From the NCBI GenBank assembly GCA_024653845.1, contig JANLHA010000241.1, forward strand, positions 1 to 12,180: 12,180 bases of DNA. The letters are read 5' to 3'. The notes under the pieces were generated by a model. That model worked only from the letters and a program-made list of their open reading frames with translations. It was not told the DNA's origin and did not search any database. Within the stretch, counting starts at the first letter, position 1. Each line of letters opens with the position of its first letter. This document shows, in pieces, positions 1-12,180 of this stretch. Origin of the DNA: Candidatus Omnitrophota bacterium. Its GTDB lineage: Bacteria > Omnitrophota > Gorgyraeia > Zapsychrales > JANLHA01. A program made the translations under genes and the position numbers.

Positions 1-1615
1 AAACGCTTCTTGCTGAAAACTTGTGAGCCCCTTTTTCTCGAGCCACACGCATCGCTAATGCCATTAAAGATGCTCCCAAATTCCCATACCCAATTTCAGA
101 TCGTAATGTGACGATGGCTTCTCTAAAAACTCGTTTCGATTCCCCCAAAATTAGAAAAGCTTCTCCTGGAAATCCTACAGAAACTTCAGCTTCCTCGCCA
201 TTGACATAAAAATGGACATACCCGACTTTGTTTTCTCCCCAATAAACATTAATCACTTGGTCTTTCCCGTTTCTCTCCTCATACCGGAACTCAAACTCCG
301 CCCCATCATCTGCGCGCACCGTTAAATTTCCATGGCCGTCGGCAACCCATCGTCGAATGGCCTCATCAACGTTAACGACACTTGATGAAGCTTGGCCCAA
401 TCGCGCGTCCTGCCCTGCCTCGCTCGCCTGTAAATCCACAGTCACAGCCTTGACTTCTTCTGCTGCTGCGGCCCGAACGGTCTCATCAAGCGCTTCTCTT
501 CTTTTTCCATCGAGCGGTTGGCCGCCATCCCCATATTGTCGCGGCGACCCTTCAGCTAATTCCAACGAACTTCCGCCGGTAAAATATTTTCGTGGGATCA
601 ATTGTTTCGTCGCCGGATCAATTTCTTCGCGGATTGAGTGATAAACACCTTTTTGGAATGCTTCCAAGTATCGCTGATAAATTTTTTGATCAATCTCTTT
701 ATCGTCGACATCAATCCCTTCAATCTTTTCTTGATCAGCGTAAGTTTGATTCAAAAGACTTTCTTTGAGATTGCGCTTATACCACGTGGCCAAAATGACG
801 GCGTTATAAATTTGGCGTAGTTGAACAAAATGTTCTCCTTCATTAACCTCTCGTTCAATGGCCGGCAAGATAATTTCTCGGACGATGTCCGTCGTCATTT
901 GTTGTTTAGAGTTGGTTGAATTTTTTGAAGAGGCTTTGAGATATTCGTCTTCCAATAGAACCTTTAAATGGTTTTCCACGACAAAAACATGATTATCTTT
1001 GACATACACTCCGGCGGTGTCAGGAATGATCCATACTTTATGAAATGTATTCACGGGAATTCGCGTGGTTCCAAAGCGCGCTCGAGCTTGCTGATAAATC
1101 TTTTGCCAAAAGATCTTGCCCCATTCTTTTTCCGGATCCATGAGCGAGGCGGTCAGTTGCTTTAAGATATAATCTTGTGCGAGCAGATCGCGCCCCATTT
1201 CCGTCTGACCAAAATTTTTAGAAATGATCCGGTCAGGGTCATCAGGTGAAAGGTTCACCCACATTTCTTTTTCCGGAACGGTCAAGGCAGCAAGAAAATA
1301 TTTGATCAATTTCTGGGATTCTTCTTTAAAAGCCGTATTTCCCAACCGCTTGTCTCCATGATCCACAAAAAATTCAAACAAAAAGGGATTATCTGAATGA
1401 ATAGTCATTCCTTTTAAGGTTGGTGGCAGAAAGGATTTGCTGGGAAGAACATGGCTTCCAGGAGTTGGGAGACTGAGTAACTCCTTGCTAGGCGCAATGA
1501 TCCCCTGAGCCTGGGCTGGAGGAATGAACGTCGTGCTGACAAATGTCAGCAAAACGATTCCCGCAGTCCATCTGCGAAAATGAAAATCTGGATTCTTGAA
1601 GGAGAGTTTAATCAT
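1..1615 (-). CDS. Exported Omnitrophota-type protein with C-terminal GNAT-like stretch (partial, C-terminus off the left edge)
   Basis: An open frame runs from ATG at 1615 to the left edge without a stop (538 codons). Residues 1-36 look like a signal peptide: basic start (FRRW), hydrophobic core (GIVLLTFVSTTF), then PAQA before QG. Residues ~60-340 resemble, from memory, a family recurrent in Omnitrophota: DNPFLFEFFVDHGD, LTVPEKEMWVNLSPDDPDRI, FGQTEMGRDLLAQDY, PVNTFHKVWI, IPRKYFTGG. The function of that family is not known to me. From about residue 445 a different module starts: ENKVGYVHFYVNGEEAEVS, then IGYGNLGASLMALAMRVARE, matching the strand-turn-helix acetyl-CoA-binding order of GNAT acetyltransferases, though the usual R/Q-x-x-G-x-G/A loop is imperfect. 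Signal peptide plus GNAT-like domain is odd, because acetyl-CoA is cytoplasmic. A well-formed promoter lies 27 bp upstream, with no clear Shine-Dalgarno. The gene is certain, the family likely, the GNAT call tentative. Confidence 0.85.
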   Translation of the reverse strand, partial: MIKLSFKNPDFHFRRWTAGIVLLTFVSTTFIPPAQAQGIIAPSKELLSLPTPGSHVLPSKSFLPPTLKGMTIHSDNPFLFEFFVDHGDKRLGNTAFKEESQKLIKYFLAALTVPEKEMWVNLSPDDPDRIISKNFGQTEMGRDLLAQDYILKQLTASLMDPEKEWGKIFWQKIYQQARARFGTTRIPVNTFHKVWIIPDTAGVYVKDNHVFVVENHLKVLLEDEYLKASSKNSTNSKQQMTTDIVREIILPAIEREVNEGEHFVQLRQIYNAVILATWYKRNLKESLLNQTYADQEKIEGIDVDDKEIDQKIYQRYLEAFQKGVYHSIREEIDPATKQLIPRKYFTGGSSLELAEGSPRQYGDGGQPLDGKRREALDETVRAAAAEEVKAVTVDLQASEAGQDARLGQASSSVVNVDEAIRRWVADGHGNLTVRADDGAEFEFRYEERNGKDQVINVYWGENKVGYVHFYVNGEEAEVSVGFPGEAFLILGESKRVFREAIVTLRSEIGYGNLGASLMALAMRVAREKGAHKFSARSV

Positions 1616-1641
1616 ATAGAAATATAATAATTTAGAATGAA

Positions 1642-1670
1642 AGTATAGAATATAAGGGCTGTAATAACAA
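1642..1670 (-). promoter_or_regulatory. Sigma70-type promoter of the exported protein
   Basis: Read on the minus strand, the region gives TTGTTA, a 17-base spacer and TATACT. The -10 ends 26 bases ahead of the ATG at 1615, so the leader would be about 20 bases. It is AT-rich and has no obvious ribosome binding site. The promoter diverges from the regulator promoter at 1715-1743. Confidence 0.6.
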
Positions 1671-1714
1671 GAGAACCCGATCTAAAGATTTTCAAAGAAT
1701 TTGATTGCTCCCCC

Positions 1715-1743
1715 TTGACAAATCTGTATCTGTGTATTATTAT
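1715..1743 (+). promoter_or_regulatory. Strong sigma70-type promoter of the GntR/ABC cassette
   Basis: TTGACA (perfect -35) at 1715-1720, a 17-base spacer, then TATTAT (one mismatch) at 1738-1743. Transcription should start near 1750, only about four bases before the ATG at 1754. The message is therefore probably leaderless. The -10 lies inside the palindrome at 1731-1754. Confidence 0.75.
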
Positions 1744-1754
1744 TGTAATACACA
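1731..1754. promoter_or_regulatory. Palindromic operator, probable binding site of the GntR regulator
   Basis: TGTGTATTA (1731-1739) and TAATACACA (1746-1754) are perfect 9-bp inverted arms around six bases. The palindrome covers the -10 element, the expected transcription start and the first base of the start codon. GTGTA...TACAC half sites are like those reported for YtrA-type GntR repressors. Autorepression by the adjacent regulator is inferred from position and symmetry. Confidence 0.75.
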
Positions 1755-2170
1755 TGGACGCCAAACCAACCAAAACCAAATTTCATTTCCAAATTTCAGC
1801 CTCTTCAGGTGTTCCCATTTACCGTCAAATCATGGACCAAATCAAGATCCAGATTGCGACACAGCCTTGGGATCCTGAGCAATTCTTGCCTTCGGTTCGA
1901 CAAATAGCCGAAGATCTGGCCATCAATCCCATGACCGTCTCTAAGGCTTACTCTTTATTAGAGAAAGAAGGTGTTCTTGAATTTGACCGCGGCAAAGGCA
2001 TGCGTGTTAAAAAAATATCTTCCTCACAAAAAAATTTTGGAGAACGACAAAAAGATGTCACTCCTTTATTAAAAGAAGTCATTGTCAAAGCTCATCAACT
2101 GGCTTTAAAACGAGAAGATATCTTTTCACTTTTAGAGAAATTATGGAGGGAACATCCTCATGAAAAATGA
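1754..2170 (+). CDS. GntR-family (YtrA-type) transcriptional regulator
   Basis: A 138-residue winged-helix DNA-binding protein. Residues 20-35 (VPIYRQIMDQIKIQIA) open the GntR fold. LPSVRQIAEDLAINPMTVSKAY (45-66) is the helix-turn-helix, and LLEKEGVLEFDRGKGMRV (68-84) contains the wing. There is only a short helical tail instead of a large effector domain, which is the YtrA subfamily pattern of ~120-140 residues usually encoded beside ABC transporter genes. ATG 1754 is chosen over an in-frame start at 1715, because that one would lie on the promoter -35 box and add a non-homologous 13-residue leader. No Shine-Dalgarno precedes it, and the mRNA is probably leaderless. The end overlaps the ATPase gene by 11 bases. 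It probably represses its own operon through the palindrome at 1731-1754. The inducer is unknown. Confidence 0.9.
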   Translation: MDAKPTKTKFHFQISASSGVPIYRQIMDQIKIQIATQPWDPEQFLPSVRQIAEDLAINPMTVSKAYSLLEKEGVLEFDRGKGMRVKKISSSQKNFGERQKDVTPLLKEVIVKAHQLALKREDIFSLLEKLWREHPHEK

Positions 2171-2870
2171 CATCATCGACGTTAAAAATGTTACAAAATG
2201 CTTTGGATCTAAGAAAGTTTTGGATGATTTGAGTTTTCAAGTTGGTCAAGGTTCTGTTTTCGGACTACTTGGCAAAAACGGATCCGGGAAAACCACATTG
2301 ATCAAAAGCATCTTGGGATTGGTTCGTCCTCAACACGGGAATATTACAACATTGGGCGATGATCCCTGGTGTTTTCAAGAATCCACCAAAGAAAAAATTG
2401 GCTATGTTCCGCAAATGGACTCTTTATATCCTTGGCTACGCATCAAGGAGATGGTTGAGTATACCGCTTCCTTTTATTCCCGGTGGAACTCCAATCTCGT
2501 CAATGAATTGATTGAAGACTGGGGACTCAATCCTCAGGATCGCATTGGAACGCTTTCCGTTGGAGAGTCACAAAAAGTTTCGATCATTTTGAGCTTAGGT
2601 CACGAACCTGAACTGCTGGTTTTCGATGAGCCAGTTGCCAGCTTAGATCCTTTTGCCCGTCGACAATTTCTAAAAACCCTAATTGAAATCATCACGCGGC
2701 GCCCTTGCACCATTTTCTTCTCAACGCATATCACATCGGATTTAGAACGAATCACGGATCATGTCGCGCTTCTTCATCAAGGAAAAATCATGTTCTGTGG
2801 CGAACTTGATGAACTTAAAACCCGAGGAAATCTCAATCTGGAAGAAATCTTTCTAGAGATGACACGATGA
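2160..2870 (+). CDS. ABC transporter ATP-binding protein
   Basis: A 236-residue single nucleotide-binding domain that would power the membrane protein encoded next. Visible in order: Walker A GKNGSGKT (38-45), Q-loop glutamine in VPQ (Q85), signature LSVGESQ (132-138, variant of LSGGQ), Walker B LLVFDE (152-157), D-loop SLDP (161-164) and switch histidine in STH (H190). All catalytic elements are present, so it should hydrolyse ATP. Length and motifs fit the ATPases of YtrB/BcrA-type efflux or antibiotic-response systems. GGAGGG at 2145-2150 lies nine bases before ATG 2160, inside the regulator gene, so translation is likely coupled. The gene overlaps the membrane protein gene by ATGA (2867-2870). 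The substrate cannot be read from the sequence. Confidence 0.93.
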   Translation: MKNDIIDVKNVTKCFGSKKVLDDLSFQVGQGSVFGLLGKNGSGKTTLIKSILGLVRPQHGNITTLGDDPWCFQESTKEKIGYVPQMDSLYPWLRIKEMVEYTASFYSRWNSNLVNELIEDWGLNPQDRIGTLSVGESQKVSIILSLGHEPELLVFDEPVASLDPFARRQFLKTLIEIITRRPCTIFFSTHITSDLERITDHVALLHQGKIMFCGELDELKTRGNLNLEEIFLEMTR

Positions 2871-4240
2871 TCAACCGCATCCGACACATTTTGCTTCTTT
2901 ACCTTCGAGAAACCAGTTTCGTTTTATTGTTTTGGGTTCTTGTGCTCGGCGTGCTTTTCGCACACTTCCTTTTTACCGATCTGGATTTTCATCAATGGCT
3001 TGTCCGTTATATCACGACGACACAATACCCCGTCTTTTCAATTTGGTCATCGGTGATGTTGGGAGCGGGTATCTGGATCACATGCCTTTTGGGCTGGATG
3101 TTCAAAGTCCAGTATGCTCACCCTCGAAGCTCCTTACTACCACACTATCGCAGCTCTCACTTGATGGTGGGTTGGATATGCTATCTACTCATTGTCATTG
3201 GGGCTATCTGGGTTATTCATGTGGGAGGGAGCTTCTACCAAGACACTTCTGATAAACAATTCGCCTTCTTTGTAGCTGCTGTTTTCTTTTCAGCCTTCAA
3301 CTTGATCCTTGGATATATTTCTTGGCCAACATTCGCAGTGGTCCTCTGGGGGATGCTCTGTCTTTTCTCAAATTATGAATATTTCATTTTGACCCAAATT
3401 TTAGGAGAATTCCTGACCAACGTCTTCGTTTTAATTCTCACATCATCAGCCCTTTTGCTCTTAACCTGGCGACTTTTTCATCTGAAAGAAGAACACTGGG
3501 AATACCCTTATCTTTTTTCTTGGACTCGCACTTCCCAAAGGCAGCATGATGCTCTTTTGACAACCCTTCTTGATATGGTTGAAAAAAGGCTGCCTTCTCA
3601 TCAGAAACATAAACCTTTAAAGATTTTGCGTTGGGATGTCCTGAGATTTTCTATCTACAAAACCATTCTTTTCTTTTCGGCCATCATTCTTCCCTTTTAC
3701 CTTTTGTACATCAAAGCGCTCTCAGAATACTTTTTGTCATTCTATCAATCTCCTTTCAAGTATTTTCTGCTTTGCGCTTATTCGGTCATTGTGATCTTTG
3801 GATTTCACTTGCGATCTATTTCTCTTTGGGGTCGCGAACTTCTTTTTCCTATGGAACGAAAACGATTCATTAAAGAAAAAGGAATGAATCTATTGATTCA
3901 AATCTATTTGCTTTGGCTTTTTCTTTTCATCTTGATCATCCTTCTTCCTTATATGTTACTCATGCCCGAATTCTTGATGACAGCTAAGTTCTGGAGCGAA
4001 ATTTTATTAACCGCGTGTTTTCCGTTGGCTGGATTTGGAGCACTGACCTCTTTACGCGATCTTTCTCCTCGACAAAGTGCCTTTGCGTTTCTAGGAATTG
4101 TAACCATCACCATTTTTCAAATGATGCAAATCAAAAATCTGGATGTTCCTATCCTTCTTATGGAAAGTTTCGCATGGTTATTCATTGGGGTGTTGTTGAT
4201 AAAAATGTCTTATCACAAATGGTGCCAAACGGAATTTTAA
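2867..4240 (+). CDS. Polytopic membrane protein, probable ABC permease partner
   Basis: A 457-residue, very hydrophobic protein with about twelve predicted spans, near residues 17-36, 56-78, 99-119, 131-151, 153-169, 184-204, then 264-284, 297-316, 342-366, 377-395, 404-422 and 427-447. This gives a 6+6 layout around a polar loop at 205-262. I do not recognise a standard ABC-2 permease signature. HPRSSLLPHYRSSH (85-98) after the second span looks like a cytoplasmic loop motif that could contact the ATPase. The start codon sits in an ATGA overlap with the ATPase stop, indicating translational coupling and a shared complex. The doubled size suggests a fused pair of six-span halves, which would need only one copy per transporter. 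The permease role is inferred from context and topology. Confidence 0.85.
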   Translation: MINRIRHILLLYLRETSFVLLFWVLVLGVLFAHFLFTDLDFHQWLVRYITTTQYPVFSIWSSVMLGAGIWITCLLGWMFKVQYAHPRSSLLPHYRSSHLMVGWICYLLIVIGAIWVIHVGGSFYQDTSDKQFAFFVAAVFFSAFNLILGYISWPTFAVVLWGMLCLFSNYEYFILTQILGEFLTNVFVLILTSSALLLLTWRLFHLKEEHWEYPYLFSWTRTSQRQHDALLTTLLDMVEKRLPSHQKHKPLKILRWDVLRFSIYKTILFFSAIILPFYLLYIKALSEYFLSFYQSPFKYFLLCAYSVIVIFGFHLRSISLWGRELLFPMERKRFIKEKGMNLLIQIYLLWLFLFILIILLPYMLLMPEFLMTAKFWSEILLTACFPLAGFGALTSLRDLSPRQSAFAFLGIVTITIFQMMQIKNLDVPILLMESFAWLFIGVLLIKMSYHKWCQTEF

Positions 4241-4255
4241 CAACCTATTCAAATG

Positions 4256-4267
4256 AAAGGAGGTGAT
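4256..4267 (+). promoter_or_regulatory. Near-perfect Shine-Dalgarno that decides the start of the small membrane protein
   Basis: AAAGGAGGTGAT is almost fully complementary to the 16S rRNA 3' end. The GGAGG (4259-4263) sits eight bases before ATG 4272, ruling out the GTG at 4263, which lies within it. Most genes here have weak or no such site, so this small gene is probably translated far more strongly than its neighbours. Confidence 0.8.
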
Positions 4268-4271
4268 TGTG

Positions 4272-4478
4272 ATGACATCAGAAACCATCAGAAGTTGTGG
4301 GAAAGCATTCGCCCTGCTCGTTGTGGGCGTCGGAGGGGTAGGATCGCTCTCTTGCGTGCCATTTGCTTTCAACAACAACATCGTTCTGATCGCGACGGCA
4401 GGTCTTTATTTTGTCGCCGGAGCGGTGATGATCACAGGTGGAATGCTCAGTTATGTGCTTTTATCAAAAGAAGCGTAA
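4272..4478 (+). CDS. Small hydrophobic protein (68 aa, two predicted spans)
   Basis: A 68-residue protein with a short polar N-terminus (MTSETIRSCGK), then two hydrophobic segments near 12-30 and 37-62 joined by a turn containing PFAFNNN, and a polar end (SKEA). It is rich in small residues (GVGGVGS, AGLYFVAGAV, TGG), typical of close helix packing. No family is recognised. It lies 31 bases after the ABC membrane protein gene and ends just before a hairpin, so it looks like the last gene of the cassette. Its exceptional ribosome binding site suggests high expression. It could be an accessory subunit of the transporter, a membrane-stress protein, or a small bacteriocin-like peptide. The first is favoured by context only. 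There is no double-glycine leader to support export as a bacteriocin. Confidence 0.7.
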   Translation: MTSETIRSCGKAFALLVVGVGGVGSLSCVPFAFNNNIVLIATAGLYFVAGAVMITGGMLSYVLLSKEA

Positions 4479-4485
4479 ATCGCAA

Positions 4486-4521
4486 CCTTTGTTTTCTCCC
4501 AGGGCCCGGGAGAAACGAAGG
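4486..4521 (+). terminator. Hairpin after the ABC cassette, possible weak terminator
   Basis: The arms at 4486-4500 and 4508-4521 pair over about 13 bp, with one bulged T and one T-G pair, around a seven-base loop (AGGGCCC). The GC-rich inner part is CTCCC/GGGAG. No U-tract follows (CTATATTAAAACC), so it may be an mRNA 3' end stabiliser or a leaky terminator before the gene at 4537. Confidence 0.45.
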
Positions 4522-4536
4522 CTATATTAAAACCTT

Positions 4537-5241
4537 ATGCTCATTCAACGACATCATCTTAGAATCCATTTCCTTTTCCCTTTACTAGGAATGGCCTTAA
4601 CCATTCTGATTTATTTCACTCCTACCCCTCATAATTATATTCAAGACAATGGCACCCTTTTTGGAATATCTTTCATCTGGGGACTTATTCGTTTGACAGC
4701 AATATTGACCCTTATTTACCAAATCATTTTTTTCTTCTGGAAAATATTTAGTCCCCAAAAAATGAATTCCTTCCAAACTGTATTTATTGCCGTTTGGCCT
4801 CTCTTGCCTCTCTTATTTTTTTACAGCTATCACCATTTCCCCTGGTATGCTCCTCTACAAATCAGAAACGCCTGGGCTAACCAGTATTTCTCAAGGTATT
4901 ATCCCCGCACCGTAGACCTTATTCGAAATTCAGAAGATATCAAAAAAAAACTTGGAGAACTCCGGCGGATAGGAATGAGTCGTAACAACCTGAATCGGAT
5001 TGATTATGGTGATCGGGGTGCCTCTGGATCTTTCACCATCGACGTCATAGGAGAACGCGAAGAGGGAATCGTTTTTGTTAAATTCGTTGATCAGGATTAT
5101 TTTCAATTCACGATCGAGAACTTCGAATTGAATGTGGGCGATAGAATTCACCGCGAGAAAGTTCAACAAGATCACTTCCAAGGAGGGAAACTTGAATCCT
5201 GGACCGGAAACGGAAAAAAATCTATAGATTTTTCGCGATGA
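4537..5241 (+). CDS. Membrane protein with possible Coa1-like C-terminal domain
   Basis: A 234-residue protein with hydrophobic segments near residues 10-28, 42-71 and 79-98, then a polar domain of about 130 residues. Residues ~130-200 run as a short helix (RTVDLIRNSEDIKKKLGELRRIG), then GASGSFTIDVIGEREEGIVFVKFV and YFQFTIENFELNVG. This is similar in layout to Coa1/Tim21-like domains (a G-x-a-x-x-x-F-x-V-x-G turn, then paired strands ending in l-x-V). The resemblance is from memory and weak. ATG 4537 is the first possible start; no Shine-Dalgarno is visible. The gene follows a hairpin, so its link to the ABC cassette is uncertain. Its 3' end overlaps the convergent phosphatase gene by 20 bases. 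The function is unknown. Confidence 0.7.
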   Translation: MLIQRHHLRIHFLFPLLGMALTILIYFTPTPHNYIQDNGTLFGISFIWGLIRLTAILTLIYQIIFFFWKIFSPQKMNSFQTVFIAVWPLLPLLFFYSYHHFPWYAPLQIRNAWANQYFSRYYPRTVDLIRNSEDIKKKLGELRRIGMSRNNLNRIDYGDRGASGSFTIDVIGEREEGIVFVKFVDQDYFQFTIENFELNVGDRIHREKVQQDHFQGGKLESWTGNGKKSIDFSR

Positions 5242-6070
5242 TAGGAAAATTTCGCGAAGACGAAAGGATATATTTCTCTTTCACTCGCCAAGGACGGGCT
5301 TCGGTGCCCATAAAAAGATCGGTATGAATTTTCTCAAGCGGTTCGCCAGTCGAAATATTGTGCAATCTTAATCCAGCGGCTTCAAAAACCGCCCAACTTC
5401 CCACAAAATCCCACAGGCTCGCATCAAAAAGGCATCCCACCCCTCGACCAACCGCTGGCCAACACAAATTCGAGACCGCCGAGGGCACGGACATCAACAG
5501 GCAGAGCGAGTGATCCCATTTGTATTTTTTAAAAAAAGATTCCGTCGCGAAAAAGAATGTTTGTCGGTTGATCTCTTGATCAACGGGCGTGATTCGCTGC
5601 GAAGTTTCTTGCGAAGAAAAAGCCTTTTCAATGAAATGAGTCTCATCGCCATCACTGACAAAGAATTCTCCCACGGAAGGAAAATAAACGCCGCCTAACC
5701 ACGGCTTCAAATCTTTCAAAACTCCGAGCGAAATTCCATAAAACGACATTCCGTTAGCATAGGCGAGCGTTCCGTCAATCGGATCTAAAACCCAAATGTA
5801 GCGATGCGATTCCAAAACGGCTTGGGTCAAACCTTGCTGACTTTCCAAAACTTCTTCGTCGATCAAGAGATGTCCCTGCGCCTTCATACCCGAAAGTCCC
5901 TGTTGAAAGATTTGTGAAATTTGAAGATCCGCATCGGTGACGACAGAGTTGTCATGTTTTAATCGCGGATGACTCTTTTTCTGCAAATCTAGAGCAACGT
6001 CTCCAGCTCGACGGAAAAGATCTCGAACTTCACGCTTCCAAAAAGATTTCACCACTTCATCTTGATTCAT
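5222..6070 (-). CDS. Inositol monophosphatase-family enzyme
   Basis: A 282-residue Mg2+-dependent, Li+-sensitive-type sugar/nucleotide phosphatase. Family motifs are VVTDAD (43-48), IDEEVL (70-75, metal-binding glutamates where GEE or SEE is more usual), WVLDPIDGT (93-101, metal ligands D96 and D99) and LWDFVGSWAVFEAAG (from 219, D221 the second catalytic aspartate). All key acids are present. The family covers inositol-1-phosphatase, CysQ (PAP phosphatase) and histidinol phosphatase. The sequence alone does not decide which, and substrate could be another phosphomonoester. ATG 6070 overlaps the glpD stop as TGATG, implying translational coupling; a GTG at 6073 is the alternative. Placement behind glpK-glpD might suggest a polyol-phosphate role, which is inference. 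It converges with the gene ending at 5241. Confidence 0.88.
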   Translation of the reverse strand: MNQDEVVKSFWKREVRDLFRRAGDVALDLQKKSHPRLKHDNSVVTDADLQISQIFQQGLSGMKAQGHLLIDEEVLESQQGLTQAVLESHRYIWVLDPIDGTLAYANGMSFYGISLGVLKDLKPWLGGVYFPSVGEFFVSDGDETHFIEKAFSSQETSQRITPVDQEINRQTFFFATESFFKKYKWDHSLCLLMSVPSAVSNLCWPAVGRGVGCLFDASLWDFVGSWAVFEAAGLRLHNISTGEPLEKIHTDLFMGTEARPWRVKEKYILSSSRNFPIIAKNL

Positions 6071-7551
6071 CACACGGGAATCCCTTGAGCAATATATTTT
6101 TCAATCACCTGTTGGCATCGTTTTGTATCACATTTCTGATACCTCAATCCCACACGACGCCCCATGATATCTTCGGCTGTTTTGGCCATTTCGACTCGAA
6201 TCGAATAAACAATCTGGGCTTCGATTGCAAGAGAACATGTACAAATTTTCTTCTTTAATGAAGGCTGATCGACGGTCAAATCTAAAACATTCCGATAACG
6301 CGTCCCGTACAAAGATTCCAGATATTCGATCGTAGCGCGATCAATTCCATAATGCCTACTCAACTCAAATGAGTCCTCATTAATCGATCCACTTCCAAAC
6401 AAAGGATACTCTGGTGTCGGCTGCCATTTCTTTTCACCCAAAACTTTGGCTAAACACTCTCCGGCAATTCGACGATACGTTGTATATTTTCCACCCATCA
6501 CATAAATCACCCCAGAGAAGGATTCTTCAATCACATGCCGACGAGAAACCTTTGAGGGGTGTCCCGACGCATAAACCAACGGCCGCAGTCCGGCAAATGT
6601 CGTCACAATTTTCTCTTTTTGAAAAGGCTCATCAGGGAAAACGCGTCGCAATTCAGAAAAGAGATAATCGATGTCTGCTGCCGCGGGTTGAGCATCTTCC
6701 ACGCGACCGGAAAAATCCGTATCCGTTGTTCCGACAAGCGACTGTCCTTTCCAAGGGATCACAAAGAAAATTCGCTGGTCCTGCTGAACCTGCAACAAAA
6801 GCGCTTTATCAGAAAGATTTTTGGCGTAAACCAAGTGCACGCCCTTGGTCGTGCGGATCTTGTGTTGCCCTTGAACGAAATCCATTTTTTTGAGTTCATT
6901 GGTCCAAGGCCCCACAGCGACCACAATCCGTCGAGCGAGAATCTCAAAACGTTCACCAGACAAAACATCGCGCGCGTTCACGCCCACAACCTTGCCATCT
7001 TTTTTATCAAAGGAATCAACAGTAACATAATTTTTGAGAACGGCCCCTCGAGAAGCTGCCATCAATGCATTTTCCAAACACAAACGCGCATCATCCATCT
7101 GAGCATCATAATAGGAAACTGCACCGGTCAAGCCTCGGGACTTCAGACCCGGCAGCACTTGCAACGCTTCTTTGGGATTAAGAAAACGATGTAGCCCTAA
7201 GCGATGCCCCCCCGCCAAAAAATCATAAAGCGCAACTCCTGCCTTCATCATCCATAGGGGGCGAGGATCTCTTTCATAAACCGGAATGACAAACTCTAAA
7301 GGCTTGACCAAATGGGGAACGCTCTGGCAGTGAACATATCGCTCCTCGAGAGCTTCACGGACCAATGTGATATCGCCTTGCTCAAGATAACGAATGCCGC
7401 CATGCATCAATTTTGTGGATTTGCTGGACGTGCCGCTGGAAAAATCACTTTTGTCGACGAGGCAGACTTTCAGGCCGCGTTGTGCCGCCATGTTGGCCAG
7501 CGCACAGCCATTGATTCCGCCACCGATGATGAGAAGGTCATAAGGGGACAT
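6070..7551 (-). CDS. glpD: FAD-dependent glycerol-3-phosphate dehydrogenase
   Basis: Oxidises sn-glycerol-3-phosphate to dihydroxyacetone phosphate at the membrane, passing electrons to quinone. The protein has 493 residues (family about 500). The FAD-binding dinucleotide fold starts at DLLIIGGGINGCALA (5-19), followed by VCLVDKSDFSSGTSSKSTKLMHGG and the GIRYLEQGD signature. Further family blocks are YYDAQMDDARL, VVAVGPWTNE, IRTTKGVHLVY, FFVIPWKGQSLVGTTDTD, LRPLV and VMGGKYTTYRRIAG. The C-terminal DAO_C-type helical domain (from about 400) includes SIRVEMAKTAEDIMGRRVGL. It is the single-subunit GlpD type, without the C-terminal iron-sulphur domain of GlpA. ATG 7551 is chosen because it starts right before the FAD fold; a TTG at 7596 would add 15 unrelated residues and overlap the palindrome. 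The leader carries a long hairpin (7581-7690). Confidence 0.95.
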   Translation of the reverse strand: MSPYDLLIIGGGINGCALANMAAQRGLKVCLVDKSDFSSGTSSKSTKLMHGGIRYLEQGDITLVREALEERYVHCQSVPHLVKPLEFVIPVYERDPRPLWMMKAGVALYDFLAGGHRLGLHRFLNPKEALQVLPGLKSRGLTGAVSYYDAQMDDARLCLENALMAASRGAVLKNYVTVDSFDKKDGKVVGVNARDVLSGERFEILARRIVVAVGPWTNELKKMDFVQGQHKIRTTKGVHLVYAKNLSDKALLLQVQQDQRIFFVIPWKGQSLVGTTDTDFSGRVEDAQPAAADIDYLFSELRRVFPDEPFQKEKIVTTFAGLRPLVYASGHPSKVSRRHVIEESFSGVIYVMGGKYTTYRRIAGECLAKVLGEKKWQPTPEYPLFGSGSINEDSFELSRHYGIDRATIEYLESLYGTRYRNVLDLTVDQPSLKKKICTCSLAIEAQIVYSIRVEMAKTAEDIMGRRVGLRYQKCDTKRCQQVIEKYIAQGIPV

Positions 7552-7580
7552 GAAAATGGATTCTTTTAAATTTATAGTCC

Positions 7581-7690
7581 TTTGTAGGGTTAGCAACCCC
7601 TTCGTTCACACGAACACCGTCTCAACTAAAATAAAAAAACTGTTTGAAGACGGCGTCCGGAGTTCACTCAGAGATTACTAACCCTACAAA
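7581..7690. repeat. 110-bp palindromic element A in the glpK-glpD gap
   Basis: The outer arms 7581-7593 and 7678-7690 are perfect 13-bp inverted repeats (TTTGTAGGGTTAG and complement). The inner arms CCGTCT (7617-7622) and AGACGG (7648-7653) enclose a 25-base loop. Between them are two unpaired blocks, 7594-7610 and 7658-7670, that are conserved in element B at the same spacing but in reverse orientation. In the minus-strand message it forms the glpD leader, ending about 30 bases before the ATG. It contains a T7 run on that strand (7639-7633). No coding capacity is seen. Confidence 0.85.
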
Positions 7691-7718
7691 TCGTATTAGA
7701 AATATTTTTTATTATCAA
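7690..7718 (-). promoter_or_regulatory. Candidate promoter for glpD between the two palindromic elements
   Basis: On the minus strand: TTGATA (7718-7713), a 17-base AT-rich spacer and TACGAT (7695-7690, four of six consensus bases). It fills the 26-bp gap between elements A and B, and transcription would start near 7683, inside the first arm of A. The -10 is imperfect and the DNA is AT-rich, so chance is possible. Confidence 0.35.
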
Positions 7719-7825
7719 CAGTTATGAGACAGCTCATGAACGAACTCTGAGGCCCGTTTACAATCTGCATTTGATTCAAGAACAAACGGGACGATTGTGA
7801 GTGAATGAGTTGTCTCATAACTGTT
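7717..7825. repeat. 109-bp palindromic element B in the glpK-glpD gap
   Basis: Arms 7717-7737 and 7805-7825 are inverted repeats with 20 of 21 positions paired (AACAGTTATGAGACA outermost). The inner arms CCCGTTT (7753-7759) and AAACGGG (7784-7790) enclose a 24-base loop. It is homologous to element A in opposite orientation, with the same internal spacing but unrelated outer arms. It starts six bases after the glpK stop, so in RNA it would be a large hairpin at the end of the glpK cistron. No U-tract follows on the minus strand, so it is not a standard terminator. Confidence 0.85.
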
Positions 7826-7831
7826 ACCAAA

Positions 7832-9337
7832 TCATTTCTCACAAGCCTTCGAAACTGCTCGCTGCCATCCCTGATACAATTTCTTTCGCTCTTGCTCCTT
7901 CATCCGAGGAGAAAATACGCGATCTTTTTTCAACAAGCGAATCAAATCGCTTTTTCCTTTCCACAATCCCGCTTTCACGCCGGCCAAAAAGGCAACTCCT
8001 TGCACCGTCGAGTCAATCATCTGAGGTCGCGCGATCCGACAATTCAAAATGTCCGCCTGAAATTGCATCAGAAAATTATTCCGACACGCACCGCCGTCGA
8101 CCTTAAGCTCTTGGATTTTTAAACCCGTCTCTTGCTTCATCAGGTCAAAAACATCTTTGGTTTGATAAGCAATCGATTCGAGAGCTGCCCGCACAATGTG
8201 CCGACGACTGGCCCCGCGCGTCAAACCACAAATCACTCCGCGCGCCTGTGAATCCCAATAAGGCGCACCCAGTCCTGTAAAGGCCGGAACCATATAAACA
8301 CCATGATTATCTTTCAACCCAGCCGCCATCGTTTCAGATTCCGACGATGATTTGATAACCTTCAATTCATCGCGTAACCATTGGATGACCGCGCCGGCAA
8401 TAAAGACCGCCCCCTCCATCGCATAAATGGGATTCCCCAAATCATCACTCGCCACCGTCGAGAGAAGTCCTTTCTTAGAAAAAACTAGCTTCTTGCCTGT
8501 ATTCAAAACCAAAAAACATCCCGTCCCATACGTATTCTTAACCATTCCCGGCTCAAAACATCCTTGACCATACAGGGCCGCTTGCTGATCACCCAACACC
8601 GCCGTAATCGGGATTCCCGACGGCAAACCAGCAACTCCCGAAGTCGTCCTACCAAATTGAGAACCTGATTTCTGCACCTTTGGCAAAATTCCCGACGGAA
8701 TCGAAAAAATCTTCAAAATTTCCTGGTCCCATTCCAATCGACGAATATTAAAAAGCAACGTTCGCGAAGCATTCGTCATGTCCGTCACGTGAGACTGACC
8801 ACCGGTCAATTTCCAAATTAACCAACTGTCAATCGTTCCAAAACACGCATCTCCGCGATGAGCTTTTGCCTGTAGCCCTGGCACATGATCCAAAAGCCAC
8901 TTGATTTTTGTTCCTGAAAAATACGGATCCAAAACAAGTCCTGTTTTTTGCCGAATACGAGATTCATATTTTCGATACCGCGGCTCGTGACACAATTCTG
9001 CGGTCCGTCGACATTGCCAAACGATCGCCTTCGCAACGGGACGCGATGTTTTCCGATCCCAAATCACCGTTGTTTCGCGCTGATTGGTGATGCCAATGGC
9101 GGTAATTCGTTGTGGAGAAATGCGCGCTTTTGCAATGGCTCGACGGATGACCGACACACAGGACGTCCAAATTTCTTCGGCATCATGTTCAACCCACCCG
9201 GGCTGAGGATAATATTGTTTAAACTCCCGATAAGCCTGAGCGATCACCTGAGCCTTAGAATTGAAAATGAAAGCACGCGACCCAGTGGTCCCTTGATCGA
9301 TGGCAAGAATGTAAGAAGATTTTTGGGAAGGCTTCAT
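7832..9337 (-). CDS. glpK: Glycerol kinase
   Basis: Transfers phosphate from ATP to glycerol, giving sn-glycerol-3-phosphate, the substrate of GlpD encoded next. It is 501 residues, full family length. The FGGY fold is clear: phosphate loop AIDQGTTGSR (12-21), WVEHDAEEIW (48-57), TNQRETTVIWD (84-94, glycerol ligands R87 and E88), DPYFSGTKIKWLLD (137-150, Y139), GTIDSWLIWKLTGG, then GDQQAALYGQ (from 249, catalytic base D250), NTYGTGCF, and near the C-terminus AFTGLGAPYWD and LKVDGGACRNNFLMQFQAD. All catalytic residues expected from the E. coli enzyme are present. ATG 9337 overlaps the upstream gene's stop as ATGA, so translation is probably coupled. No glycerol facilitator gene is seen in the window. 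Confidence 0.96.
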   Translation of the reverse strand: MKPSQKSSYILAIDQGTTGSRAFIFNSKAQVIAQAYREFKQYYPQPGWVEHDAEEIWTSCVSVIRRAIAKARISPQRITAIGITNQRETTVIWDRKTSRPVAKAIVWQCRRTAELCHEPRYRKYESRIRQKTGLVLDPYFSGTKIKWLLDHVPGLQAKAHRGDACFGTIDSWLIWKLTGGQSHVTDMTNASRTLLFNIRRLEWDQEILKIFSIPSGILPKVQKSGSQFGRTTSGVAGLPSGIPITAVLGDQQAALYGQGCFEPGMVKNTYGTGCFLVLNTGKKLVFSKKGLLSTVASDDLGNPIYAMEGAVFIAGAVIQWLRDELKVIKSSSESETMAAGLKDNHGVYMVPAFTGLGAPYWDSQARGVICGLTRGASRRHIVRAALESIAYQTKDVFDLMKQETGLKIQELKVDGGACRNNFLMQFQADILNCRIARPQMIDSTVQGVAFLAGVKAGLWKGKSDLIRLLKKDRVFSPRMKEQERKKLYQGWQRAVSKACEK

Positions 9338-9888
9338 TGAGAACCCGATGACTCAAGTTCTTTGAGAAGTTTCTCAAGCTGTTGGATTTCTTGGTTCAAT
9401 TGTTGCAAATGCTGCTTAATCGTTTGAATTTGTTGCGATCCCTGACTCGCCTTTTCTTTCGTCGGAGAAACTTTAGGAGTTGCTGGCACAGGAGGCTGAT
9501 AAATCGTGATGATGGGTTTCTGAAAAAGCCCATTCCCCAATTTCTGGGATGGCGCTCCTAACAATTTCGCTTCTCGATCACGGAGGACTCGCAATTCTTC
9601 TTGAAAAGAAACCTTGAGGGCTCGCAAATCTTTTTGAATCAAACGGATATTCTTCTCTTGTGCCTGACGCTCTTCGTTTGTTTTTGTTTCCCGCTCCACT
9701 TCTTCCTGAAGACGCGCGTCAATATCTTTTTTCTTCTGCTGATAATTTTCTAGCAGGCTTTTTTGTTCTTCTCGAAGATCCAAAACTTCAGATGGCAATT
9801 CAGGCGCCTGGGAAGACTGTCCCTGCGCATGTGCTCCGAAAGGAAAGACCAATAAAATGCTTAAAAAAAATGCGATGAAATATTTCAT
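9334..9888 (-). CDS. Secreted coiled-coil protein of unknown function
   Basis: A 184-residue protein. Residues 1-21 are a clear signal peptide (MKYF, hydrophobic AFFLSILLVFPFG, then AHA before QG). There is no lipobox cysteine, so a soluble periplasmic form is expected. Residues ~34-108 are a long, charged, Glu/Lys/Gln-rich helix suited to a coiled coil. A proline-rich link follows (IYQPPVPATPKVSP), then a second coiled coil at ~151-180 with leucine spacing (LQQLNQEIQQLEKLLKELE). No enzyme motif or family is recognised. It sits 22 bases after gltD and overlaps glpK by four bases (ATGA), so it is co-transcribed with metabolic genes without an obvious functional link. An envelope structural or scaffold role is a guess. 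Confidence 0.8.
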   Translation of the reverse strand: MKYFIAFFLSILLVFPFGAHAQGQSSQAPELPSEVLDLREEQKSLLENYQQKKKDIDARLQEEVERETKTNEERQAQEKNIRLIQKDLRALKVSFQEELRVLRDREAKLLGAPSQKLGNGLFQKPIITIYQPPVPATPKVSPTKEKASQGSQQIQTIKQHLQQLNQEIQQLEKLLKELESSGSQ

Positions 9889-9910
9889 GGGATGGCTCTT
9901 TCGAAAGATT

Positions 9911-11344
9911 TTACGTCTGAGCAGCTAAAAATCGACCAACGCCTTCGGCAGCCGCTCGTCCCTCATTGATGGCCCATACTACCAGCGACTGTCCTCGACG
10001 CATATCTCCTGCGGCAAAAACTCCCTGAACACTGCTCATGCGGTTGGCATCCGTCTTCACATTGCCTCGCGCATCTAATTCTACACCCAATTCTTCGATC
10101 ATTCCATTTTTAACAGGCCCTAAAAACCCCATAGCCAACAGCACAAGGTCTACATCAATGGTGAATTCAGAGCCTGGAATTTCTTTCATGTCTCGTCGAC
10201 CGGTTTTAGAATCCACCGGCCCAAACTCAAGATGAACGGCGTGTAACTTTTTCACATGACCATTCTCACCTGAAAACTTTTTCGTCAGAATTGCATAATC
10301 ACGTTCAACCCCTTCCTCATGCGACGTCGACGAACGCTCAATCAATGCCCAATTCGGCCATGGGTTGTCCGCGGCTCGAGTTTTCGGAGGACGAGCCATC
10401 AATTCATAATTTTTAACCGAAACAGCGCCTTGACGGTTCGATGTTCCGATGCAATCTGATCCTGTATCGCCTCCACCGAGGACAACGACGCGCTTTCCTT
10501 GCGCACTGATACGTTTGGACGGATCCAATTTTTGCCCCAAATTTACGCGGTTTTGCTGGGTTAAAAAATCCATCGCAAAATGAATTCCATTCAACTCACG
10601 CCCTTCAACAGGAAGATCCCGGGGCTGCTCCGCTCCACCACAAAGAACAACCGCATCATATTCTTCCACCAACTTTTTCGTCGCAATATCTTTCCCAATA
10701 TGCACGCCTGTCTTGAATTTGACACCTTCTTGTTCCATGCGTTTGAGTCGACGCTCGACGACCCACTTTTCCATTTTGAAATCCGGAATCCCTAACGTCA
10801 AAAGCCCCCCCAACACTTCATTTTTTTCATAAAGCGTTACGGTATGTCCTAATTTATTCAACTGATCTGTGCACGCCAATCCCGACGGACCAGAACCCAC
10901 CACCGCCACTTTCTTCCCCGTGCGGTGTTTGGGAGGCTGTGGCTTGATCCAACCTTCCTTGTAAGCACGCTCAACAACAGAAACTTCAATGTTCTTAATC
11001 GTCACCGGTGGGGCATTGATTCCTAAAACGCAAGAGTTTTCGCACGGAGCCGGGCATACTCGTCCCGTAAATTCTGGAAAATTGTTGGTTTTATGCAAAC
11101 GTTCAATGGCGTCTTTCCACTGATCACGATAAACCAAATCATTCCAGTCAGGGATGATATTGCCAATCGGACAACCATCTTGACAAAACGGCACGCCGCA
11201 ATCCATGCACCGGGCCCCTTGATGCTGGAGTTCTTCCTTGGGCATCTCGAGATAAAATTCTTTCCAATGCTTGATACGCTCTTGTGCGGGTTGCTTATGA
11301 AAATCTTCCCGCGGATATTTTAGAAATCCTTTTGCGTCACCCAT
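9911..11344 (-). CDS. gltD: Glutamate synthase (NADPH) small subunit
   Basis: Moves electrons from NADPH through FAD and iron-sulphur clusters to the large subunit, which makes glutamate from glutamine and 2-oxoglutarate. It is 477 residues, normal length. The N-terminal cysteine sets are CMDCGVPFCQDGC (C46, C49, C54, C58) and CPAPCENSC (C97, C101, C105). The FAD fold is VAVVGSGPSGLA (146-157), with GGLLTLGIPDFKM after it. The NADPH fold is VVVLGGGDTGSD (286-297), and the C-terminal FAD-binding motif is GVFAAGDMRRGQSLVVWAI. AGGAAG (minus strand, 11355-11350) lies five bases before ATG 11344. It follows gltB across a 112-bp gap holding a GC-rich palindrome, and the gltB-gltD order is the usual one. 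The enzyme group is secure. Confidence 0.96.
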   Translation of the reverse strand: MGDAKGFLKYPREDFHKQPAQERIKHWKEFYLEMPKEELQHQGARCMDCGVPFCQDGCPIGNIIPDWNDLVYRDQWKDAIERLHKTNNFPEFTGRVCPAPCENSCVLGINAPPVTIKNIEVSVVERAYKEGWIKPQPPKHRTGKKVAVVGSGPSGLACTDQLNKLGHTVTLYEKNEVLGGLLTLGIPDFKMEKWVVERRLKRMEQEGVKFKTGVHIGKDIATKKLVEEYDAVVLCGGAEQPRDLPVEGRELNGIHFAMDFLTQQNRVNLGQKLDPSKRISAQGKRVVVLGGGDTGSDCIGTSNRQGAVSVKNYELMARPPKTRAADNPWPNWALIERSSTSHEEGVERDYAILTKKFSGENGHVKKLHAVHLEFGPVDSKTGRRDMKEIPGSEFTIDVDLVLLAMGFLGPVKNGMIEELGVELDARGNVKTDANRMSSVQGVFAAGDMRRGQSLVVWAINEGRAAAEGVGRFLAAQT

Positions 11345-11361
11345 GGCATCTTCCTATCACC

Positions 11362-11448
11362 TCAGCGGGTCCTGCGACCGAGCCACCGGCGAGGAAGTGT
11401 CGGAGCGCAATTGCGATCCGACGCCCTGCCCTCCGGGCCACCCGCTGA
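11362..11448. repeat. GC-rich nested palindrome between gltB and gltD
   Basis: The outer arms TCAGCGGGT (11362-11370) and ACCCGCTGA (11440-11448) are perfect 9-bp inverted repeats. Inside, 11399-11422 is a 24-base palindrome with one mismatched pair, centred on GCAATTGC and ending in GTCGGA/TCCGAC. The DNA is much richer in GC than its surroundings. It resembles a REP-like intercistronic element and in RNA would form a multi-stem structure 18 bases before the gltD start. Both arms are free of coding signals. Confidence 0.75.
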
Positions 11449-11456
11449 TGAAAACA

Positions 11457-12180
11457 TTAATTTTGCTTAGTTATTTCAATCACTTCTTTGGCCTTTGCTT
11501 GATTGGCTTCTTCAATCACCCGTCGGTAATCGGTAGGGTAGACTTTCACAAACTGAGAAAGTGTTTTCTCCCAATTCTGCAAAATGCCCTCAGCCACCGT
11601 GCTCTTGGTATATTGAGCATGTTCTTGAATCAAATCTTTCAATTCCTGAATATCTGACGCTTCCTGGACAGGAAAAAGCTCAACCATCCCCTTATTGCAA
11701 AGATTTTTAAAATTCCCATCGCGATCCCAAATGTAGGCAATGCCTCCCGACATCCCGGCTGCAAAGTTACGTCCCGTTGGACCAATCACCACCACGCGGC
11801 CACCCGTCATATATTCACATCCATGGTCACCAATCCCTTCAACAACCGCACTCGCCCCACTATTGCGCACGGCAAATCGTTCGCCGGCAAGTCCACAAAA
11901 ATACGCCTTGCCTCGGACAGCTCCATACAAAACGACATTTCCGACAATGATATTTTCTTCGGGGATAAACGTGGCATTTCTCGGCGGACAAATGACAATC
12001 TTTCCACCCGACAATCCCTTCCCAACATAATCGTTCGCATCGCCTTCTAGGCGCAATGTCACGCCATTCGCTAAAAACGCACCAAAACTTTGTCCGGCGG
12101 ATCCTTGAAAATTGATTTGGATTGTATCCTCCGGAAGCCCAGCCAAACCATACCGGCGAGCAATTTCGCTACTCAACATT
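11457..12180 (-). CDS. gltB: Glutamate synthase large subunit, C-terminal part (partial, N-terminus off the right edge)
   Basis: This is the last 240 residues of GltB, which produces ammonia from glutamine and uses it to make glutamate from 2-oxoglutarate. The visible part is the GXGXG beta-helix domain: [14 protein letters not shown], then repeated glycine turns ([81 protein letters not shown]). A short tail follows ([18 protein letters not shown], then [16 protein letters not shown]), as in other GltB C-termini. The methionine at 12179 is internal, so the frame continues past the edge ([10 protein letters not shown] matches the family's interior). The amidotransferase and FMN domains would lie outside the window. 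Confidence 0.95.

Follow-up and report, generated by a model that had tools for sequence, protein, structure and literature searches.

A dispersed hairpin family with copy-specific outer arms in a Candidatus Omnitrophota genome: a candidate REP/BIME-like mobile element

REP elements carry GTAG or CGTC tags, and their mobility is attributed to RAYT transposases, as outlined in PMC2817692, PMC3733652 and PMC8266576. In the accounts of REP and BIME sequences given in PMC2817692 and PMC3733652, these are dispersed extragenic palindromes that occur as opposite-orientation pairs of two related types and show complementary stem changes, and the E. coli REPs treated in PMC12306157 are located just after stop codons; the family described here resembles them in all of these respects. 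Mobile hairpins are also described from mitochondria, and PMC2800124 notes for the double-hairpin elements of Allomyces that they have no flanking duplications.

We analysed a stretch of 12,180 nt from a Candidatus Omnitrophota bacterium (GCA_024653845.1, contig JANLHA010000241.1, positions 1-12,180), hereafter the window. It contains an A-type hairpin, element A (7581-7690, with minus as the well-folding strand), and a B-type hairpin, element B (7717-7825, with plus as the better-folding strand), separated by an AT-rich 26-bp spacer (7691-7716) that by eye is unlike the spacers of the other five pairs in this genome. The coordinates, mutual inversion and 26-bp gap given in a preliminary description of this DNA were confirmed, as were its counts for A against B of 13 identities in the 17-base block and no common aligned position in the outer 13 bases. 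The copy-specific 13-nt arms of A lie at 7678-7690 (5' arm on the minus strand) and 7581-7593 (3' arm on the minus strand, which pairs with 7678-7690 and is found in no other copy), and those of B at 7717-7729 (5' arm, plus strand) and 7813-7825 (3' arm, plus strand). Inside them is a tandem G.A core, of which the 5' and 3' halves read GAGTGAAC (7662-7669) and GTGAACGA (7602-7609) on the minus strand in A, and GAACGAAC (7738-7745) and GTGAGTGA (7797-7804) on the plus strand in B. The wording for the blocks that had been called conserved and unpaired has to be refined: on the strand that folds well, they include two tandem G.A mismatches.

The pair lies between two ORFs on the minus strand. The upstream one (7832-9337), with its stop codon 6 nt away from element B, is presumably a glycerol kinase gene (glpK), and the downstream one (6070-7551, with a further TTG start at 7596, ATG 7551 being the likelier start) is taken by us to be a glycerol-3-phosphate dehydrogenase gene (glpD). 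Each of the four strands of the two elements gave a more stable fold than shuffled sequence (200 shuffles; z between -4.5 and -8.8), with a strand preference that was clear in A (minus -56.4 kcal/mol, z -8.8; plus -32.6 kcal/mol, z -4.5) and slight in B (plus -45.9 kcal/mol, z -6.1; minus -40.1 kcal/mol, z -6.3). We found no Rfam family above its curated score in the window, where the three sub-threshold matches concerned two families of microRNAs and one of snoRNAs, and none above it in 11 loci of relatives.

The genome of the window is a single metagenome-assembled genome of 2.07 Mb in 395 contigs (87% complete). A BLAST search of it with the A-B pair returned 47 rows, and most matches to the A part started at query positions 53-59 and stopped at 129-144, leaving out most of the outer arms. 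A covariance model built from 17 A-type and 6 B-type copies recovered 7581-7690 on the minus strand (E 5e-27) and 7717-7825 on the plus strand (E 8e-23), A and B themselves being among its 23 training sequences. Across the genome the model gave 59 rows corresponding to 51 distinct places, the other eight rows being opposite-strand duplicates; the 51 places are a lower bound, since 150 of 648 first-look candidates were scored. These at least 51 places comprise 31 A-type copies, 18 B-type copies (typed by a script rule) and 2 internally deleted forms of 48 nt, and the earlier prediction that numerous copies would combine variable arms with constant blocks holds for this dispersed family in this genome. 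We also ran an exact-pattern scan over contigs of 84,980 species, a set that possibly does not include this or a very near genome; it gave two records, in Microbacterium and Streptosporangium, which we take as chance matches judging by the length of the pattern, and the same scan of viral contigs gave no match.

The architecture of the copies is uniform. Among the 49 full copies, 44 span 109-111 nt and the other five 101-108 nt, and in the consensus an outer stem of 21 bp leads into two tandem GAs, each followed by 2 bp, and then into an internal loop and an inner stem closed by a loop of about 27 nt. The core with its two tandem G.A mismatches and the inner hairpin are common to A- and B-type copies, and 25 of the 33 consensus pairs carry double changes. 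The two deleted copies are B-like (L066 3138-3185 and L092 2227-2274), differ from each other in their arms and apparently arose by recombination between the TGAGCGAA repeats that flank the core.

The outer 13 bp are different in every copy, yet they pair: 572 of 637 cells over the 13 arm positions are Watson-Crick, and the remainder are 32 G.U, 14 A.C and 19 other. Outward from a conserved YAA, the Watson-Crick fraction is 0.76-0.98 over the 13 positions, and pairing holds in 43/49 places at position 13, in 31/49 at position 14 and in 18/49 at position 15 and then falls to chance (49 places, deleted forms included and two full copies without the script anchor left out). The copy-specific paired part thus extends about 13 nt outward of the YAA block and ends sharply at 13-14 bp; one copy, C6:1017, has poor arm pairing. 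Entropy in arm columns 1-9 is 1.7-2.0 bits, and it is nearly 0 in many core columns. The mismatches are distributed differently along the arm, with 10 G.U, 11 A.C and 13 other in the distal part and 22 G.U, 3 A.C and 6 other in the four arm-proximal pairs. Because the ratio of G.U to A.C is 22:3 in the latter and 10:11, without a G.U bias, in the former, the proximal stem shows the imprint of a folded strand and the distal arm does not. In an abstract and title survey of the open-access literature (titles and the openings of abstracts), we found no description of copy-specific arms.

Outside this genome the family is sparse. Model R1 gave matches in 4 of 54 genomes and model R2 in 8 of 35, and a phylum-wide search matched 4 of 237 genomes, the genome of the window being included in each count; the other three of the last search were from the same order. 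The absence across the phylum is weak evidence, as 16 candidates were scored per genome under strict filters. By eye, most of the relatives' matches have the tandem G.A core, and L103 lacks it. A further family, C, was matched in 9 of 54 genomes, and the arms of the copies displayed are for the most part the same across copies and genera; in one genome (G042) the variation is mainly in the outermost 3-5 bp. In one genus (G042 and G014) most of the C copies displayed are joined to a B-like hairpin, forming a composite with a conserved spacer. Seven such composites (L156, L157, L165, L171, L176, L180 and L183) measure about 250-280 bp and by eye have a conserved stretch in front. Given the conserved arms of family C, inheritance of the arms may have come first, and copy-specific arms may be a trait of the lineage of the window.

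We then compared the arms with the ancestry of the interior. In 10 A pairs whose interiors differ by <5% (some copies recur among these pairs), the mean distal-arm distance is 0.63 vs 0.68 for independent draws. Interior columns of B are linked to one another (15/162 column pairs at p<0.02, 3.2 expected), arm and interior columns of B are unlinked (2/180 at p<0.02, 3.6 expected), and the arm-arm tests of B gave 2/36. The corresponding tests for A gave 4/73 between interior columns (1.5 expected), 5/126 between arm and interior (2.5 expected) and 5/36 between arm columns (0.7 expected). Mantel tests of arm against interior gave p values of 0.08 and 0.16; the resemblance between nearest arms is slightly above that after shuffling of columns, and the arms of C250 and C264:1895 have 12 of 13 positions in common. 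The arms are nearly independent of interior ancestry; on account of the Mantel values, the nearest arms and the column tests of A, a small part of the arm may be inherited or driven by the target.

Private changes, in turn, are spread evenly over the interior. Singletons make up 24/1372 cells in the core and 28/1274 in the loop (p 0.48), 13/588 in the outer conserved stem and 13/784 in the inner stem, and variants shared by at least two copies occupy 15 cells in the core and 176 in the loop (p 1e-36, counted over cells and not events), 89 in the outer stem and 30 in the inner stem. We read this as a core sequence that is filtered in the propagating lineage, with resident copies decaying freely. 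The even private mutations together with the near-random arms give the copies the appearance of young mobile elements that acquired new, matching arms when they arose. Private interior changes amount to 1.6% per site in A and 2.4% in B; distal-arm mismatches per arm site are 2.5% in A, near the private rate, and 6.5% in B, more than the private rate predicts. Some very diverged interiors retain perfect arms (e.g. C353:3259), and arm perfection is uncorrelated with interior divergence and not significantly correlated with private changes, for which reason we rejected arm decay as a clock.

These patterns bear on the proposal of the preliminary description that covarying arms reflect selection on a folded RNA or single-stranded DNA. 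One version of this would be a long-standing structured family in which the copies are functional, the interior is selected and the arms drift with compensatory changes. The double changes in 25 of 33 pairs, the strong folds of A and B, the 22:3 excess of G.U over A.C in the four proximal pairs, the perfect arms in some very diverged copies and the core kept, by eye, in distant relatives all speak for it. However, single copies are oriented sense and antisense 16:16, the core is not depleted of singletons, the distal arms have no excess of G.U over A.C (10:11), and arms are near-random even between nearly identical interiors. We therefore consider such a family quite unlikely: the proposed selection is supported for the core and the four arm-proximal pairs, in the propagating lineage, and not for the distal arms, where strand balance, absence of a G.U bias, even private changes and little or no relation to interior ancestry all oppose it.

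The arms also have a skewed composition. In the 5' arm G is abundant and C scarce (G 259, T 168, A 142, C 65), with a degenerate leaning to TTGRG..TKGGGG. In gene sense the left arm has a G fraction of 0.40 and a C fraction of 0.10, and G is 0.19-0.24 in host spacers and 0.30 just before starts; as the arms are richer in G than the spacers, random copying of flanks is insufficient and a preference for G-rich targets must be added. A source elsewhere in the genome was rejected, the longest match of an arm on its own contig averaging 8.3 vs 8.0 on other contigs, and matches across 307 kb averaging 10.4 vs 10.2 for shuffled arms. The excess of G and T agrees with what PMC8794818 predicts for the 5' arm under intrastrand template switching, a process reported there to make and mend perfect stems, and the arms could thus be inherited and then homogenised or changed in place by such quasipalindrome correction. 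Correction should not be able to outrun point mutation, yet the arms are near saturation at about 2% private interior changes, and no fixed arm length would be expected; we regard this explanation as unlikely.

Regarding genomic position, 42 of the 51 places lie between co-directional genes, which is close to the background of 245/280 adjacent gene pairs in the same contigs, and the others lie between convergent genes (3), between divergent genes (2) and at contig edges (4); genes were called for these counts with a simple ORF script. Of the 32 single copies in co-directional spacers, 28 are located at most 17 nt from the upstream stop codon, one of them overlapping the stop by 9, and their sense and antisense orientations are balanced at 16:16. 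An intrinsic terminator has a short GC-rich stem and behind it, in gene sense, a U run; the flanks of the copies, by eye, are AT-rich on both sides, with no motif and no clear U run, and both gene orientations occur. Six close pairs were found, all in minus-plus order and each made up of one A and one B (one B being a deleted form), with spacers of 12-26 bp that by eye are unlike one another; the remaining 39 places are single. These six pairs have the two palindrome types, the alternating orientation and the regular spacing of a BIME, and their equal geometry supports the earlier suggestion of a small non-autonomous mobile element with an arrangement like that of REP pairs. A seventh adjacency, on contig C2 (L055 ~10386-10460), has another geometry, in which an A copy stands beside a truncated B, with its 3' half present and its 5' half absent.

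We searched for direct target duplications around 50 copies, trying 9 lengths at 16 offsets and comparing with shuffled pairs of flanks; the best z was 3.0 of 144 combinations, which we take as no signal after allowing for that number. The conserved terminal inverted repeats and direct target duplication of a MITE or DDE transposon are accordingly missing from these copies, the tips being copy-specific. Mobilisation as a canonical REP/BIME system by a RAYT (Y1) transposase would account for extragenic palindromes near stop codons and for opposite-orientation pairs of two types, and one Y1_Tnp gene is present in the genome. However, no copy was found near this gene, the far flank of which is cut by the contig end, and R2, a model that may miss C-type hairpins, had no match in any of the 29 Y1 loci of relatives that were covered, out of 97 listed; the arms have no conserved GTAG or CGTC end tag, and the element measures about 110 nt vs 20-40. 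We hold this origin to be highly improbable. The Y1 gene (RAYT-like, L021) ends close to the contig end, and its neighbour is presumably a DDE insertion-sequence transposase gene.

Copy-specific perfect arms would be explained at once if the interior had landed in the loops of perfect palindromes, for instance terminators, that were already there, and the position of the elements after stop codons and the presence of a few terminator-like hairpins (e.g. C116:4436 and C99:8316) agree with this. In 41 contigs (307 kb), however, we counted few unoccupied perfect hairpins of matching size (stem >=10, loop 3-10), namely 8 (a contig-end case excluded) against 2 in shuffled sequence. The search for inverted repeats from 12-bp seeds outside the elements in the same 307 kb gave 12 (contig end included) against 4 shuffled. 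A perfect inverted repeat of 93 bp at the end of contig C6 (L087 1-193), which by eye includes a tRNA-like stretch, is probably an assembly artefact, and a 14-bp inverted repeat at C301:1952 was taken as chance, lying inside a coding sequence that we assume to be ctaA and ctaB.

We also looked at the loci of relatives that correspond to the carAB and hemBL copies of the genome (17 of 27 carA and 11 of 18 hemB loci displayed, the own genome excluded, carB following in 14 and hemL in 7 by eye). No comparable hairpin was found in these 17 and 11 downstream regions, where the best perfect stem in 200 nt measured 6-10 bp vs 12 and 18 bp at the carAB and hemBL copies, so that none exceeded 10 bp; in the locus with the 10-bp stem, carA does not lead into carB. 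Since the displayed relatives belong to other genera (CarA at most 81% identical), this comparison speaks to the absence of the hairpin and not to the origin of the arms. Four carA loci from other genera (L117, L119, L120 and L113) have, by eye, different short repeats in the downstream region, e.g. a repeated TAGTCGC and CACGAACAACGA-like motifs. As terminators would not, in addition, yield an arm length fixed at about 13 bp, insertion into existing palindromes seems improbable to us.

The longest inverted repeat outside the elements and contig ends (C106:6311-6461, L077) led to a second hairpin family, D, with 7 copies in the genome (on C106, C17, C46, C190, C43, C76 and C330) and an interior unrelated to A and B. 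The BLAST matches of the six other copies start at query position 21, inside the arm; the paired stems measure about 18-22 bp, including at most two non-Watson-Crick pairs, and some copies resemble one another in the inner but not in the outer part of their arms. Family D thus behaves like the A/B family in having largely copy-specific arms, and it had two remote matches, in G008 and G013.

The C106 copy of family D offers one direct case for the origin of an arm. Its left arm contains the last codons of queC, and a GGC glycine codon in this arm aligns where 68 of 120 QueC sequences, the own one included, have G. When the left arm is kept once and the flanks are joined, the sequence reads EEVGRR-stop and continues into the start of the next gene, which we take to be queE. 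As the left arm holds the end of queC, the right arm looks like its inverted copy and the left arm like the original. A DP motif follows just past the glycine position in 78 of the 120 QueC sequences and is missing from the own genome (G000), so the flank may have been replaced and not merely duplicated. In a parallel coding check of arm origin with the CysH tail, the tails of the homologues were too variable. Some QueC and CysH homologues are labelled Candidatus Omnitrophota or Omnitrophica, in agreement with the phylum of the window.

Taken together, we favour, with a probability of roughly 0.55, the reading that A/B is a non-autonomous, REP/BIME-like mobile hairpin that makes its arms by snap-back copying of flanking DNA. 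The part inherited between copies would be the interior, that is a 7-bp stem, the two tandem G.A mismatches, the internal loop, the inner hairpin and a AATTCTAG-type loop. Each insertion would create its own outer 13 bp on both arms; these would be new rather than inherited, would start out perfectly complementary and would bring the outer stem to about 21 bp, or two helical turns. In this process the folded interior would become joined to a target sequence X, and the 3' end of the element would prime back on X and copy it, giving X-element-X'. The result would be an inverted duplication of about 10-14 nt of flank, after which the original flank would continue. The fixed length of the arms suggests a protein that measures two helical turns. 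Somewhat more tentatively, and at less than even odds, two unrelated families in one genome may use a mode of insertion of which we found no account, in which a hairpin measures two helical turns and inversely duplicates about 13 nt of the target, each copy thereby building perfectly paired arms of its own. The pairs of one A and one B are not easily explained by separate insertions.

If the arms are made at insertion, covariation in a stem, the strongest usual sign of a functional RNA, can arise without selection, and searches for structured RNAs based on covariation could pick up such repeats. Insertion of this type would also represent a new kind of target duplication, inverted rather than direct, and the origin of copy-specific palindromes in bacterial operons would become testable by comparison of strains.

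Among the known systems, integron attC sites have an R box GTTRRRY that pairs with RYYYAAC; aligned by eye to these boxes, the block beside the A/B arms reads GTTRY... and not GTTRRRY, which differs from attC. A REP is a palindrome of 20-40 bp with a short loop and a conserved terminal GTAG or CGTC tag; unlike REP and BIME sequences, A/B elements measure about 110 nt, have an interior of several parts, lack either tag in arm columns 1-9 and carry 13-bp outer arms unique to each copy, and no RAYT linkage was seen at the own Y1 locus or at the 29 Y1 loci of relatives, out of 97, that were searched. Family C and the B-like composites, from other genera of the same order, resemble A/B in having, by eye, the same tandem G.A core, in the length of the outer stem (about 19-22 bp) and in opposite-orientation pairing, and differ in that their arms are largely inherited. 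The mitochondrial repetitive and double-hairpin elements covered in PMC2800124 are likewise mobile hairpins, moved by a mechanism given there as not known, and the sponge mitochondrial elements among them have conserved stems and variable loops, the reverse of A/B. Finally, the template-switch hairpins of PMC8794818 resemble A/B in that a reverse-complement copy of nearby sequence gives a perfect stem in one step, with 5' arms rich in G and T; what is presented there as a mutation process in RNA genes would in A/B serve the spread of an element, at a fixed length.
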